DNA of 34,182 nt, taken from an uncultured Ruminococcus sp. (GTDB taxonomy: Bacteria; Bacillota; Clostridia; Oscillospirales; Acutalibacteraceae). The notes below the pieces were generated by a model, which saw nothing but the letters and a program-made list of their open reading frames with translations, had not been told where the DNA came from and did no database searches. Made by a program: the position numbers and the translations under genes. Shown here in pieces: positions 6,962-12,606 of the stretch; the first letter of the stretch is position 1; each line of letters opens with the position of its first letter. The stretch is from NCBI GenBank assembly GCA_902768825.1, contig CACXMR010000018.1:1-34182 (forward strand), written 5' to 3'.

Positions 6962-8566
6962 TTATTTATTATCGAGACTCGCCTTTATAAACTCCCTGAA
7001 AAGCGGGTGCGCATGGTTGGGACGGCTCTTGAATTCCGGGTGGTACTGCACACCGATAAAGAAACGGTTAGTCGGAATCTCAACAGCCTCAACCAGCATT
7101 CCGTTAGGCGAAGTGCCGGTCACAGCCATGCCGTTTTCCTCAAAGAGACTGCGGAACTCATTGTTAAACTCATAACGATGACGGTGGCGCTCACGAATCT
7201 CCCCCACACCGTAGGCTCTCGACATAATGGTATTCTTGCGGATCTTGCAGGGATAAGCGCCGAGACGCATGGTGCCGCCCATATCCACAACGCCCTTCTG
7301 GTCGGGCATCAGGTCAATAACCTTATGAGTGCTCTCAGGGTCAAGCTCACCGGAGTTTGCGTCCTTGAAGCCAAGGACATTTCTTGCATACTCAATTACT
7401 GCGGTCTGCATTCCAAGACAGATGCCGAGATATGGGATGTCATGCTCCCTTGCATACTTTGCGGCGATGATCTTTCCCTCAACGCCTCTGTTGCCAAAGC
7501 CTCCGGGAACAAGTATGCCGTCAACATGGCCAAGAAGCTCATCTACAGTGTATTCCGTAATAAGCTCTGTGTCCACCCACTCTATCTCTACAAATGCCTT
7601 GTTTTCATATCCGGCATGATGAAGCGCCTCAGCGACAGACAGATATGCGTCGTGGAGCTGGACATACTTTCCGCAGAGAGCGATCTTTACTTCCTTGTCA
7701 CGGGAGTTTATCCTGTCAAGCATCTCAAGCCACTCGGTCATATCGGGCTTGGGTGCGTCTATTTTCAGCTCACGGCAGACGATGTCGCTGAAATTTGCCT
7801 TCTCAAGCATGAGAGGAGCCTGATAAAGCACCGGAATGGTCATATTTTCGATAACGCAGTCAGGCTTTACGTTGCAGAACATAGCTATCTTCTTAAAGAT
7901 GCTGGGATCGAGAGGCTCGTCACAGCGAAGCACCATGATATCCGGATTGATGCCGAGAGAACGGAGCTCCTTTGCCGAGTGCTGAGCGGGCTTTGATTTG
8001 TGCTCCTCGCTGCCCTTGATGTAGGGCACGAGGCACACATGGATGAAAAGGCTGTTTTCCTTGCCCACCTCAACGCTTACCTGACGGATAGCCTCAAGGA
8101 AGGGCTGGCTTTCGATATCGCCCACGGTACCGCCGATCTCGGTGATGACGATATCCGCATCGGAATCCTCACCCACTGCGTAGATGAAGGACTTTATCTC
8201 ATTTGTGATATGAGGGATTACCTGAACCGTCTGACCCAGGTAATCTCCGTGGCGCTCCTTTTCGAGCACGTTGGAGTATACCTTGCCTGTGGTCAGGTTA
8301 GAAAACTTATTAAGGTTTTCGTCGATGAAGCGCTCATAGTGTCCCAGATCAAGGTCTGTCTCAGCGCCGTCCTCAGTAACATATACCTCGCCGTGCTGAT
8401 AGGGGCTCATTGTGCCGGGATCCACATTTATATAGGGATCAAGCTTCTGAGAGGCGACCTTGAGTCCTCTTGCCTTGAGCAGACGTCCGAGGGAAGCGGC
8501 AGTAATGCCCTTGCCGAGACCCGAAACTACTCCACCCGTTACGAAAATGAACTTTTTGCTCATCAT
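6962..8566 (-). CDS. pyrG: CTP synthase
   Basis: CTP synthase makes CTP from UTP, ATP and glutamine, the last step of pyrimidine nucleotide synthesis. The 534 residues match the usual length. The synthetase domain opens with [16 protein letters not shown], then has [13 protein letters not shown] and the conserved [13 protein letters not shown] region. The glutaminase domain carries [17 protein letters not shown] with the nucleophilic Cys at about 385, and His509/Glu511 in QYHPEF. Two Met codons stand in tandem at 8566 and 8563; the first overlaps the stop of the carB-dapF gene in an ATGA, so translation is probably coupled. Its position behind carAB places two pyrimidine steps in one transcript. 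Confidence 0.96.
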
Positions 8567-11500
8567 AACTCAATGTCTCCTTCAAATACTGTTTCCGCAT
8601 AGCCTGTAAGATAAACCGTATCATCAGTATACTCGATGATGAGGTTTCCGCCCTTGAGCTTTACGGTTATAGGCTCGTTCTTTCTGCAAAGACCGTTTTC
8701 TACAGCAGCCACAGCAACCGCACAGGCTCCGGTTCCGCAAGCCCATGTCTCTCCGCTGCCGCGCTCCCATACACGCATCTCGATGGTGTGATCGTCTATT
8801 ACCTTTACAAACTCCGCATTGACTCTTTCCGGGAAGAGCTCACTGTTTTCAAAGAGCGGTCCGATCTTCTCAAGGTCGATCTTGTCCACATTGTTGCAGA
8901 ATACCACACTGTGAGGATTGCCCATGGATACGCAGGTGATGTTATATTTCTGTCCGCCGATGGTAACAGGCTCGTCAATTACCTTAGGCTTGTTGATGGC
9001 TACCGGGATCTCAGTTGAATGAAGGACAGCCTTGCCCATATCTACACGGAGCACATCTACCTCACCGTCATGGCGGAAGGCCTTGAGGGTCTTAATGCCT
9101 GAAAGGGTTTCGATCCTGACAGTATCACCCTGTACCATGTTGTGGTCAAAGAGATACTTGCCCACGCAGCGGATACCGTTGCCGCACATCTTGCCCTCAC
9201 TGCCGTCCAGGTTATACATCTTCATCTTTGCATCAGCCACATCTGAGGGGCAGATAAGGATAACGCCGTCGCCGCCGATGCCATAGCGCCTGTCAGCAAA
9301 ACGCACGCTGAGGCCTTCGGGGTTGTTGATCTTCTGATTGAAGCAGTTGAAGTAGATATAGTCATTGCCGCAGCCCTGCATCTTTGTAAAGCGCAGCTTC
9401 ATCTTCGTGGTTCTCATGTTGTTTATGTCAACAAGCTCGGTGCTATACTCTGAATAGCGGCTCTTGAGTGAATCCGCAAGAGCATTGGCGGTGTCGATAG
9501 ATGTCAGGCAGGGAATGTTCCTCTCTACCGTCTTTCTTCTGATCCTTACGCTGTCACGGGTGGGGATTCTGCCCTTTGAGGAGGTAGAAATAACATAGTT
9601 GATCTTGCCGCTCTCGATGAGTGTCAGGGTATTCTCCTTGTCGTTCTCGTGAATCTTGTCAACCTCGATAACGTCAAGTCCGTAGTTTCTGAGGATCTGA
9701 GCGGTGCCCTTTGTAGCATAGAGGGTAAAGCCCAGCTCGTCATACTTCTTGGCAACATCGCCGATTTCCTTCTTGTCAGGGTTACGCACTGTGATAAACA
9801 CGCCGCCATGCTTCTTCATCTTGTAGCCTGCAGCGATAAGTCCCTTATAGAGAGCTTCCTCAAGTGTGCCGGCAATGCCCAGCACCTCGCCGGTAGACTT
9901 CATCTCAGGACCAAGCTGGTTATCAACATTGATAAGCTTTTCAAAGGAGAATACAGGCACCTTGACTGCCACATAGGGTGAGCGTCTGAAAAGACCTGTG
10001 CCATAGCCCATGTTTTCCAGCTTTTCGCCAAGCATAGCCCTTGTTGCAAGGTCTACCATGGGAACGCCTGTAACCTTGCTGATGTAAGGAATGGTTCTTG
10101 AAGAACGGGGGTTGACCTCGATAACATAGAGATTGCCCTCATAGATAAGATACTGTATGTTTACAAGACCCTTTGTTTTCAGAGAAACCGCAAGGTTCTT
10201 GGAGGTATTGATGATATTCTGGGTCATCTCGTCGCTGATGTTCCATGCAGGATAAACAGCGATGGAGTCACCGGAGTGGATGCCTGCACGCTCAACGTGC
10301 TGCATGATGCCGGGAATGAGTATATCTTCGCCGTCACAGATAGCGTCAACCTCAAGCTCTGTGCCGGAGAGATACTTGTCAATAAGGATCGGATTTTCGA
10401 TATCCTGAGCAAGGATGATTGCCATATACTCCTTGACATCCTCCTCGTTGAAGGCGATTATCATGTTCTGACCGCCAAGAACGTAGGAAGGACGGAGAAG
10501 TACAGGATAGCCTATCCTCTGTGCAACATCGAGAGCTTCCTCAGTAGTCATTACTGTAAAGCCCTCAGGACGCTTGACATTGTGCAGCTCAAGCAGCTCA
10601 TCAAAGCGCTCTCTGTCCTCTGCCATGTCAATGCTGTCGGCAGATGTGCCAAGGATATTGATGCCGCTCTCGCTGAGGAACTTTGTCAGCTTGATAGCGG
10701 TCTGGCCGCCGAATGCCACGACAACGCCCCAGGGCTTCTCTGTATTGATAATGCCCATAACGTCCTCGTTTGTCAGAGGCTCAAAGTAAAGCCTGTCAGC
10801 GGTGTCAAAGTCTGTGGAAACCGTCTCCGGGTTATTGTTAACGATAACTACGTCAAAGCCTGCCTTCTTCAGTGCCCACACGCAGTGCACCGACGCATAG
10901 TCAAACTCTATGCCCTGGCCGATTCTGATAGGACCTGAACCAAATACGATGATGGTCTTGTTGGTGGAGTTTTTCTCCTTGATGAAGGCCTCAGCCTCAT
11001 TGTCCTTATCAAAGGTGGAGTAGAAATAAGGTGTTTCAGCCTTAAACTCAGCAGCGCAGGTATCAACCATCTTGTATACGGGAACCATGGGGTTTTCGAC
11101 CTTTTTGCCCGAAAGCTTCTCTATGGTCTTGTCAAGGAAGCCCAAAAGCTTTGCCCTGCGGTAAAGCTCATCGCTAAGCTCACCCTTCTTCAGTTCATCC
11201 TCACAGTTAGCAAGGTTGAGCAGCTTATAAAGGAACCACTCGTCGATCATTGTAGCCGCATGGATATCATCAACGCTGATGCCTCTCCTGAGTGCCTCAT
11301 ACACACAGAAGATACGCTCGTCGTCACACACATGGAGCCTCTCACGGATATCCTCAAGGCTCATAGCGGCAAACTTGGGGTCGGACATGGTGTCGTGACG
11401 TATCTCAGCGCCTCTGACAGCCTTCATCATTGCCTGCTCAAAGCTGGGAGCTATTGACATTACCTCGCCGGTAGCCTTCATCTGGGTGCCCAGAGTCCTC

Positions 11501-12606
11501 TTTGCATAAACAAACTTATCAAAGGGCCACTTGGGGAACTTGACCACTATATAGTCAACCGCAGGCTCAAAGCAGGCATAGGTCGTGCCTGTGACAACAT
11601 TCTTGATCTCATTGAGGGTGTAACCGATAGCAAGCTTTGCAGCGACCTTTGCGATGGGATAGCCTGTTGCCTTTGATGCAAGAGCGGATGAACGTGAAAC
11701 ACGGGGGTTGACCTCGATCACGGCATACTCAAAGCTCTCAGGCTGCAGTGCGAACTGTACGTTACAGCCGCCCTCTACTCCCAGAGCACGAACTATGGAA
11801 AGTGCTGCCGAACGGAGCATCTGATATTCCTTATCGGCAAGGGTGACCGCAGGAGCAACAACTATGCTGTCGCCGGTGTGGACGCCCACAGGATCAACGT
11901 TCTCCATTGAGCACACGGTGATGGCGTTGCCCATCCTGTCACGCACTACCTCAAACTCTATCTCCTTCCAGCCGGAGATGCACTTCTCTACAAGCACCTG
12001 GGTGATAGGTGAAAGTGCCAGACCGTTTGATGTGATCTCACGCAGCTCGTCCTCGTTGTTGACGATGCCGCCGCCTGTGCCGCCAAGGGTAAAGGCAGGA
12101 CGGATGATGACAGGATAGCCGATCTTGTTGGTAAATTCTATAGCAGACTGAACGTCATTTACTACGGTTGACGGGATGCAGGGCTGACCGATGGACTCCA
12201 TTGTGTCCTTAAACATCTGTCTGTCCTCTGCCTTGTCGATAGTCTCAGGATCAGCGCCCAGGAGCTTGACATTGTGCTTTTTGAGGAAGCCTTCCTTTGC
12301 AAGCTGCATGGAAAGGGTAAGGCCTGTCTGTCCGCCAAGGGTAGACAGAAGTGAATCCGGCTGCTCCTTGATGATTATCCTCTTGACTGTTTCAAGGGTC
12401 AGGGGCTCTATGTATACCTTATCGGCCATTGCCTTGTCGGTCATTATTGTCGCAGGATTGGAGTTGACGAGGACTACCTCAAGTCCTTCCTCCTTCAGTG
12501 CACGGCAAGCCTGTGTGCCTGCATAGTCAAATTCGGCTGCCTGTCCGATAACGATAGGGCCCGAACCGATCACGAGAACTCTCTTTAAGCTTTTATCCTT
12601 AGGCAT
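8563..12606 (-). CDS. carB-dapF: CarB-DapF fusion: carbamoyl-phosphate synthase large subunit + diaminopimelate epimerase
   Basis: One uninterrupted frame of 1347 codons. Residues 1-1065 or so are a complete CarB: an N-terminal ATP-grasp half ([20 protein letters not shown]), a second half ([20 protein letters not shown]) and a C-terminal allosteric MGS-like domain ([30 protein letters not shown]). CarB with CarA makes carbamoyl phosphate for pyrimidines and arginine. From Met1069 on, 279 residues are a complete DapF, which converts LL- to meso-diaminopimelate for lysine and peptidoglycan. It opens [19 protein letters not shown] and has both catalytic cysteines, Cys1141 ([12 protein letters not shown]) and Cys1290 ([12 protein letters not shown]). 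The joint ([10 protein letters not shown]) is only a few residues long, and no good ribosome site precedes the internal ATG. The start overlaps carA by 8 bases and the stop overlaps pyrG. Confidence 0.93.

Follow-up and report, generated by a model that had tools for sequence, protein, structure and literature searches.

A carB:dapF fused gene in Ruminococcus and other Bacillota, and a possible non-catalytic role for its DapF domain

The fused gene and its joint

Enzyme fusions usually link steps of a single pathway. In the DNA analysed here, referred to as the window (34,182 nucleotides of contig CACXMR010000018.1, assembly GCA_902768825.1, from an uncultured Ruminococcus sp. of the Acutalibacteraceae), the large subunit of carbamoyl-phosphate synthase (CPS), CarB, and diaminopimelate (DAP) epimerase, DapF, are encoded together in a single gene, carB:dapF, which links two pathways, pyrimidine and arginine synthesis (begun by CPS) and lysine and cell-wall synthesis, without a known shared intermediate at these steps (Table 1). 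The first-pass annotation of this DNA had claimed that one stop-free frame runs through both enzymes, and this is borne out: translation of the minus strand gives 1347 codons with no internal stop, and both domains score far above their cut-offs. Given the window's base composition, a random sequence would be free of stops over 1347 codons with a probability of 3e-29, and over 279 codons with a probability of 1e-6.

Residues 1-1051 match CarB (NF003671, 1500 bits, cut-off 599; TIGR01369, 1450 bits, cut-off 1027), and E. coli CarB (1BXR) is aligned by phmmer to residues 1-1043 in a single stretch. The two ATP-grasp halves and the MGS domain described earlier are recovered by Pfam along with an oligomerisation domain, the assignment to CarB itself being made from the whole-domain scores. 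Residues 1072-1345 match DapF (TIGR00652, 283 bits, cut-off 114.65), with two DAP_epimerase stretches in Pfam. Cys1141 and Cys1290, already singled out as key residues, are confirmed by alignment as the catalytic Cys73 and Cys217 (numbering of E. coli DapF, after the part of PMC4227774 covered here), and together with 10 further pocket positions they served as the reference for the relatives.

The joint is as short as had been reported, adding about 0 residues, as the CarB tail passes straight into DapF Met1069, and the reported lack of a ribosome site also holds, no Shine-Dalgarno match being found before the window's internal ATG; the start of carB itself is preceded by AGGAGG. Unfused CarBs of the order finish in ...ELVDITKI, ...ELVDINTIR or similar, and across 132 distinct full-length fused proteins, the window's included, the joint reads approximately ...TELVDINxMRxEK followed by the DapF start, with nearly constant length, the sole exception named being locus L227, whose joint is about 10 residues longer. 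Because fused joints and unfused CarB ends match in this way, the fusion is, to judge from these alignments, the natural end of CarB, a few residues and the natural start of DapF.

Table 1. Positions of the fused gene, its parts and other features in the window
Feature	Position	Strand	Remarks
carB:dapF fused gene, 1347 aa	12606 to 8563	-	ATG start; stop codon 8563-8565
CarB part, residues 1-1068	9403..12606	-	Includes both ATP-grasp halves and the oligomerisation and MGS allosteric domains; keeps its natural C-terminal tail
MGS-like allosteric domain, residues 949-1035	9502..9762	-	PF02142; ends shortly before the joint
Joint zone, residues 1052-1068	9403..9453	-	CarB tail; no added linker; no Shine-Dalgarno match
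DapF part, residues 1069-1347	8566..9402	-	NCBIfam and Pfam matches
Cys1141 codon (DapF catalytic Cys73)	9184..9186	-	Alignment to DapF
Cys1290 codon (DapF catalytic Cys217)	8737..8739	-	Alignment to DapF
carA, CPS small (glutaminase) subunit	12599..13684	-	NF009475, 472 bits; 8-base overlap with carB
pyrG, CTP synthase	6962..8566	-	NF003792, 836 bits; 4-base overlap with the end of the fused gene
Response regulator with ANTAR domain	13815..14495	-	Upstream of carA
1303-aa protein	27913-31824	-	Big_2 domain
Frame at contig end	32955-33326	-	Overlaps the next frame
Frame at contig end	33247-34182	-	Overlaps the previous frame

The genes stand in the order carA, carB:dapF, pyrG and yebC, with the Shine-Dalgarno match of pyrG lying inside dapF. 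From its position alone, the ANTAR response regulator is a possible regulator of the cluster; such a regulator lies upstream of carA in many of 80 named loci and also adjoins some unfused dapF genes. The source genome (2.49 Mb in 94 contigs, 100% complete, 3.44% contamination) was searched throughout for another dapF or carB, as the annotation had advised, and neither was found, the next CarB match being 25% identical over 237 residues. DapL and Ddh are encoded off the window's contig, on contigs 13 and 57, respectively.

Spread and origin of the fusion

Fused forms were counted among relatives by eye on the listed rows, so that all taxon counts are lower bounds from overlapping samples in which some frames are cut by contig ends. 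Within the genus, a DapF match was obtained in 60 of 64 genomes and none in the other four, and DapF lies inside an open frame of at least 1326 aa in at least 47 of the 64. Among the matches listed, which do not include that of G020, DapF lies in frames of 765-1093 aa in five further genomes and in short frames (122-372 aa) in another five, and G016 and G025 show standalone DapFs only. One of the short-frame genomes, G015, has what seems to be a fused gene interrupted by a frame break; its DapF is counted within the 38 standalone DapFs considered below. Beyond the genus, a listed frame of at least 1300 aa occurs in at least 62 of 250 genomes of the family, one match covering MGS and DapF in at least 111 of 297 of the order, and the fused form in at least 52 of 393 of the class (G614, with a stop at its carB/dapF boundary, being excluded) and at least 20 of 398 of the phylum, 18 of these outside the class. 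The fused frame was verified in Ruminococcus bromii ATCC 27255, R. albus KH2T6, Pseudoruminococcus massiliensis, and Ruminococcus sp. FC2018 and zg-924, as well as in records titled Christensenella sp., Peptococcaceae bacterium UBA5757, Candidatus Scybalocola and Candidatus Avimonas. The lone assembly error that the annotation had feared, or a binning error, for which the draft state of the genome in 94 contigs might speak, is thereby ruled out: fused frames are present in relatives, and the same joint recurs in the 132 distinct full-length proteins, independent records of R. bromii ATCC 27255 and R. albus KH2T6 included.

Fused frames of 1432-1710 aa had raised the suspicion of a third domain. 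Six were opened (G019, G333, G353, G498, G159 and G315), and in five the extra length lies apparently upstream of CarB. G498 has an insert inside CarB, a degenerate repeat of about 200 aa (GMNPSLTSSGSGEEG-like) in frame between the CarB halves (locus L193, G498:C38:42000-54000, at about 4068-4670), for which no Pfam match was found in this one species.

The history of the fusion was read from a tree of CarB sequences (73 rows fused, 43 unfused; FastTree, local support only, midpoint root), near-identical rows having been thinned. In a first version, most of the unfused rows had been sampled across the phylum, so the nearest unfused CarBs were missing; a draw within the order supplied unfused CarBs at 65-72% identity, and when the tree was rebuilt with 39 extra CarBs (37 unfused, 2 fused), the fused clade was recovered again, now enclosing four unfused rows instead of one. 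Every sampled fused row falls in one clade with 100% local support, and unfused CarBs of the order (G452, G476, G443, G317 and G469) stand beside it. The four unfused rows within the clade (G1033; G312; G129 with G328) imply four state changes, which are read, on this tree, as one gain and three losses of the DapF domain. Several independent fusions are not needed, as the tree has a single fused clade. Fused rows from other classes are scattered within that clade, and horizontal transfer of the fused gene is therefore suggested. At the single origin, the natural end of carB would have been joined in frame to the natural start of dapF, after which the gene would have spread by inheritance and probably by transfer among many Bacillota. 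Among gut clostridia, R. bromii and R. albus included, the fusion is both old and widespread.

Other arrangements of the two genes were also met. In G614 (L188) and G377 (L327), carB and dapF adjoin in the same frame, separated by a stop and four codons; these CarBs belong to a different clade, about 50% identical, and the arrangement may represent the state before fusion. In G197 (L175) and G284 (L176), a standalone dapF lies between the fused gene and pyrG, giving a tandem dapF. Where an unfused dapF has no adjoining carB, pyrG or an ANTAR regulator stands beside it in 6 of 11 opened loci. In the DapF tree, also thinned of near-identical rows, resolution is poor (31 of 130 branches carry a star) and some standalone DapFs fall among fused ones, so that no conclusion on the source of the standalone copies is taken from it.

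Active-site state and constraint in the fused DapF

The active site was surveyed in 80 of 94 candidate genomes, picked for spread over families, and Cys73 was scored in 78 of the 79 with a fusion (G970 had no row of its own, its contig being as long as that of locus L127, which keeps Cys73). It is absent from the fused DapF in 41 of the 78, a proportion that is not a population frequency because of the way the genomes were picked. By rows, Cys73 is absent in 49 of 178 fused DapFs (the window's domain being counted twice), replaced by Ala in 28, Gly in 8, Ser in 7, Phe in 4 and Pro and Thr in 1 each, and is present in all 38 standalone DapFs.

DapL makes LL-DAP, the substrate of DapF, while Ddh makes meso-DAP directly. 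Both were searched for in the 36 genomes where no DapF other than the fused one was found (35 surveyed genomes and the window's own). Among the 28 that keep Cys73, DapL exceeds its cut-off in 24 and Ddh is present in 15, with neither in two (G521 and G869); among the 8 that have lost it, DapL exceeds its cut-off in none (G340 has a partial match below it), Ddh is present in 7, and neither in one (G541). In 18 of the 24, moreover, dapL lies within 3.5 kb downstream of the fused gene and on the same strand, so that the two pathways also meet in the gene neighbourhood. Together with the association of DapL with Cys73 state (Fisher p 2e-5 over the 36 genomes, kinship ignored), this indicates that the fused DapF accompanies the pathway in which it is required. 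A second DapF and Ddh are both lacking in 13 of the 28, although one of them, G869, keeps Cys73 while having lost Cys217 and the Glu-Arg pair. We infer that the fused DapF with Cys73 is probably a working epimerase in most lineages, the window's included, where both cysteines are kept and the DapF part would epimerise LL-DAP supplied by DapL.

In the remaining lineages, the catalytic Cys73 seems to have been lost several times while the domain stayed attached. On a tree of fused CarBs with 71 scored rows, its state changes a minimum of 13 times, and loss of the whole domain, three times on the differently sampled CarB tree, is the rarer event. One clade of 22 rows (100% local support) draws on 15 families, of which 6 belong to other orders of the class; Cys73 is missing from all its rows but one, G869, which lacks Cys217. 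Another route to meso-DAP, either a second DapF or Ddh, is present in 40 of the 41 genomes without Cys73, the exception being G541.

To judge from substitution rates, the domains without Cys73 (lost-Cys domains) are still under purifying selection. Of 14 pairs, 9 were saturated; among the 5 with a finite ratio of nonsynonymous to synonymous rates (dN/dS), the three closest give 0.062, 0.057 and 0.119, and the two whose dS is finite but high give 0.161 and 0.120. All 37 lost-Cys domains that were measured are 278-287 aa long, and no DapF remnant was found on 64 fetched unfused CarBs, whose longest C-terminal extension is 52 residues. With near-identical rows thinned, pocket columns are 92% conserved in lost-Cys domains and other invariant columns 89%. 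Over the 49 lost-Cys domains, Asn64 is present in 49, Asn157 and Glu208 in 48 each, Asn190 and Arg209 in 46 each, and Cys217 in 40; Asn64, Asn157, Asn190, Glu208 and Arg209 occur all together in 45.

The attached domain, its possible role and known systems

The sequence basis of what follows is the single frame, the single clade, the active-site state, the routes to meso-DAP and purifying selection. By a little over an even chance, in our estimate, the fused gene encodes a two-enzyme protein whose DapF also serves CPS non-catalytically, in assembly and perhaps in DAP sensing. Lost-Cys domains, in particular, probably have a non-catalytic role at the allosteric end of CarB, because their genomes have other routes to meso-DAP, the domains are under purifying selection and keep their pocket, and domain loss is rarer than change at Cys73. 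In the parts of the literature covered here, effectors of CPS bind its C-terminal domain and E. coli CPS dimers form via regulatory domains (PMC6245113), human CPS1 is activated by N-acetylglutamate acting from the C-terminal domain (PMC4655335), and E. coli DapF is a dimer that still bound and activated RppH when both cysteines were changed to alanine (PMC4227774). The attached DapF would most likely hold or tune CPS subunit assembly at the allosteric end: because DapF is dimeric and CPS dimers form through regulatory domains, a DapF dimer placed there could hold or bias the CPS dimer. The retained substrate pocket may let the domain sense DAP, the presence of which in the pocket could alter that hold.

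Several points weigh against this proposal. The association of Cys73 loss with a second DapF (33 of 43 genomes with one versus 8 of 35 without, p 3e-6) ignores kinship, and a test on independent pairs, drawing on the 71 of 79 tree rows with a Cys73 state, 57 of them with both traits, gave the same direction (3.1 versus 0.6 of 7 supported pairs) without reaching significance (median p 0.375). Lost-Cys domains are somewhat relaxed, with dN/dS of 0.06-0.16 versus 0.027-0.088 in 14 kept pairs, and the DapF:CarB distance ratio is 1.76 in lost-Cys versus 1.63 in kept domains. Their full length is partly built in, since fused rows were required to have more than 230 aligned DapF residues, and Asn11 (73% conserved) and Cys217 (82%) are partly relaxed, which might fit catalysis given up and binding kept, but gradual decay would initially look alike. 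The domain has been lost about three times on the CarB tree. The fused DapFs of G869 and G541 (loci L197 and L199) are degenerate, and searches of these two genomes gave no second DapF, no Ddh and no DapL above the cut-off. In addition, the window's genome carries Ddh, so its DapF may not be essential, and any effect of DAP or of the DapF domain on CPS, with DAP as the ligand, is put forward here as a proposal.

The main rival, which we regard as possible and by no means negligible, is structural entrenchment, in which a stop between neighbouring genes was lost by chance and CarB then grew dependent on the domain to fold or stay stable, regulation and a ligand playing no part. This would account for the keeping of domains without Cys73 and sits well with the near-equal conservation of the other invariant columns (0.89 versus 0.92 for the pocket); such joins are also easily made, because G614 and G377 have carB and dapF in one frame with only a stop and a few codons between them. 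The roughly three domain losses speak against it, as CarB can evidently manage without DapF, and so does the joint presence of five pocket residues in 45 of the 49 lost-Cys domains, which goes beyond any obvious folding need. Somewhat more doubtful is the stronger form of our own proposal, by which DapF would be a DAP-sensing allosteric module of CPS, with the binding of LL- or meso-DAP, in a pocket that outlasts catalysis, adjusting the output of carbamoyl phosphate. If that were true, the supply of pyrimidines (UDP-sugars) and arginine would track the supply of cell-wall and lysine precursors.

A plain two-enzyme protein, in which independent activities share one chain for co-expression or stoichiometry and lost-Cys domains are in decay before loss, is considered unlikely. 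The close downstream position of dapL (in 18 of 24 DapL genomes), the apparently intact active sites of the window's protein and the mildly raised dN/dS of lost-Cys domains favour it, but the 22-row clade from 15 families looks old and dN/dS is far below 1 in all five finite pairs. That the fusion ties both pathways to one expression level, and perhaps to one complex, as the annotation had suggested, is plausible, but it does not account for the retention in many lineages of a DapF without its catalytic cysteine, which shared expression alone would not predict. Very unlikely is a change of lost-Cys domains into a different enzyme, with a new substrate or as a one-cysteine lyase or racemase. 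The second cysteine is kept in 40 of the 49, as is most of the pocket, and DapF relatives with other substrates exist, namely O-ureido-serine racemase (by its PDB title) and, from a literature entry, PddB, but the residues taking the place of Cys73 are Ala, Gly, Ser, Phe, Pro or Thr, with no shared new catalytic residue. Least probable of these is that DapF is also or mainly a separate product, made via an internal start or cleavage: an ATG stands at DapF residue 1 in 49 of 177 fused genes and a Shine-Dalgarno-like match of 4-6 bases lies ahead of some in-frame start codon of the zone in 33, but 144 have no such match before any in-frame start there, 5 lack any ATG, GTG or TTG across the 18-codon zone, residue 1 is often substituted (e.g. 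by Gln, Ile, Leu or Lys), and the window's internal ATG has no match either.

The fusion, with its lost-Cys domains, offers a natural experiment on the persistence of a metabolic enzyme domain as a control part of another enzyme, and it points to a possible link between pyrimidine and arginine supply and cell-wall precursor supply. It also calls for caution in annotation, as a DapF match within CarB is not always a working DapF.

Elsewhere in the window, the 1303-aa protein looks secreted by eye and ends in an array of several similar repeats, three of which match Y_Y_Y. One of the two overlapping frames at the contig end has a zinc-peptidase-like HEIGHAI motif and reaches 21.8 bits with Reprolysin_4, just below the cut-off of 22; no Pfam match was found for the other.

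Among known systems, the window's protein resembles the CarAB-type glutamine-dependent CPS (E. coli CarB; TIGR01369/NF003671) in having all CarB domains, carA directly upstream and the MGS allosteric end, and differs in its additional C-terminal DapF domain. Similarly, it contains a full DapF domain with both catalytic cysteines (TIGR00652; PDB 2OTN, 1GQZ and 9MRO), but unlike standalone DapF this domain is fused to CarB, and many fused relatives lack Cys73. The bifunctional DapF/glutamate racemase family (NF038284) is another multifunctional DapF, for which the window's protein scores 114.8 bits, below the cut-off of 350. Human CPS1, in the part of the account covered (PMC4655335), is alike in that a CPS large subunit is chained with other parts and controlled through its C-terminal domain. 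Moonlighting of DapF is already known: in the covered part of PMC4227774, E. coli DapF acts as a non-catalytic partner of an unrelated enzyme, RppH, with both cysteines dispensable, but that partnership is non-covalent and with another enzyme, and the text covered does not mention DAP sensing.

By titles and abstract openings, none of the papers listed in searches of the open-access literature deals with a CarB-DapF fusion; annotation databases may well display both domains on these proteins. What is new is a fused DapF without Cys73 in 41 of 78 scored fused genomes. CPS fusions as such are of a known kind, and in CAD, the eukaryotic example, the partners come from the same pathway; unlike CAD, the window's CPS has a partner that comes from lysine and peptidoglycan synthesis.

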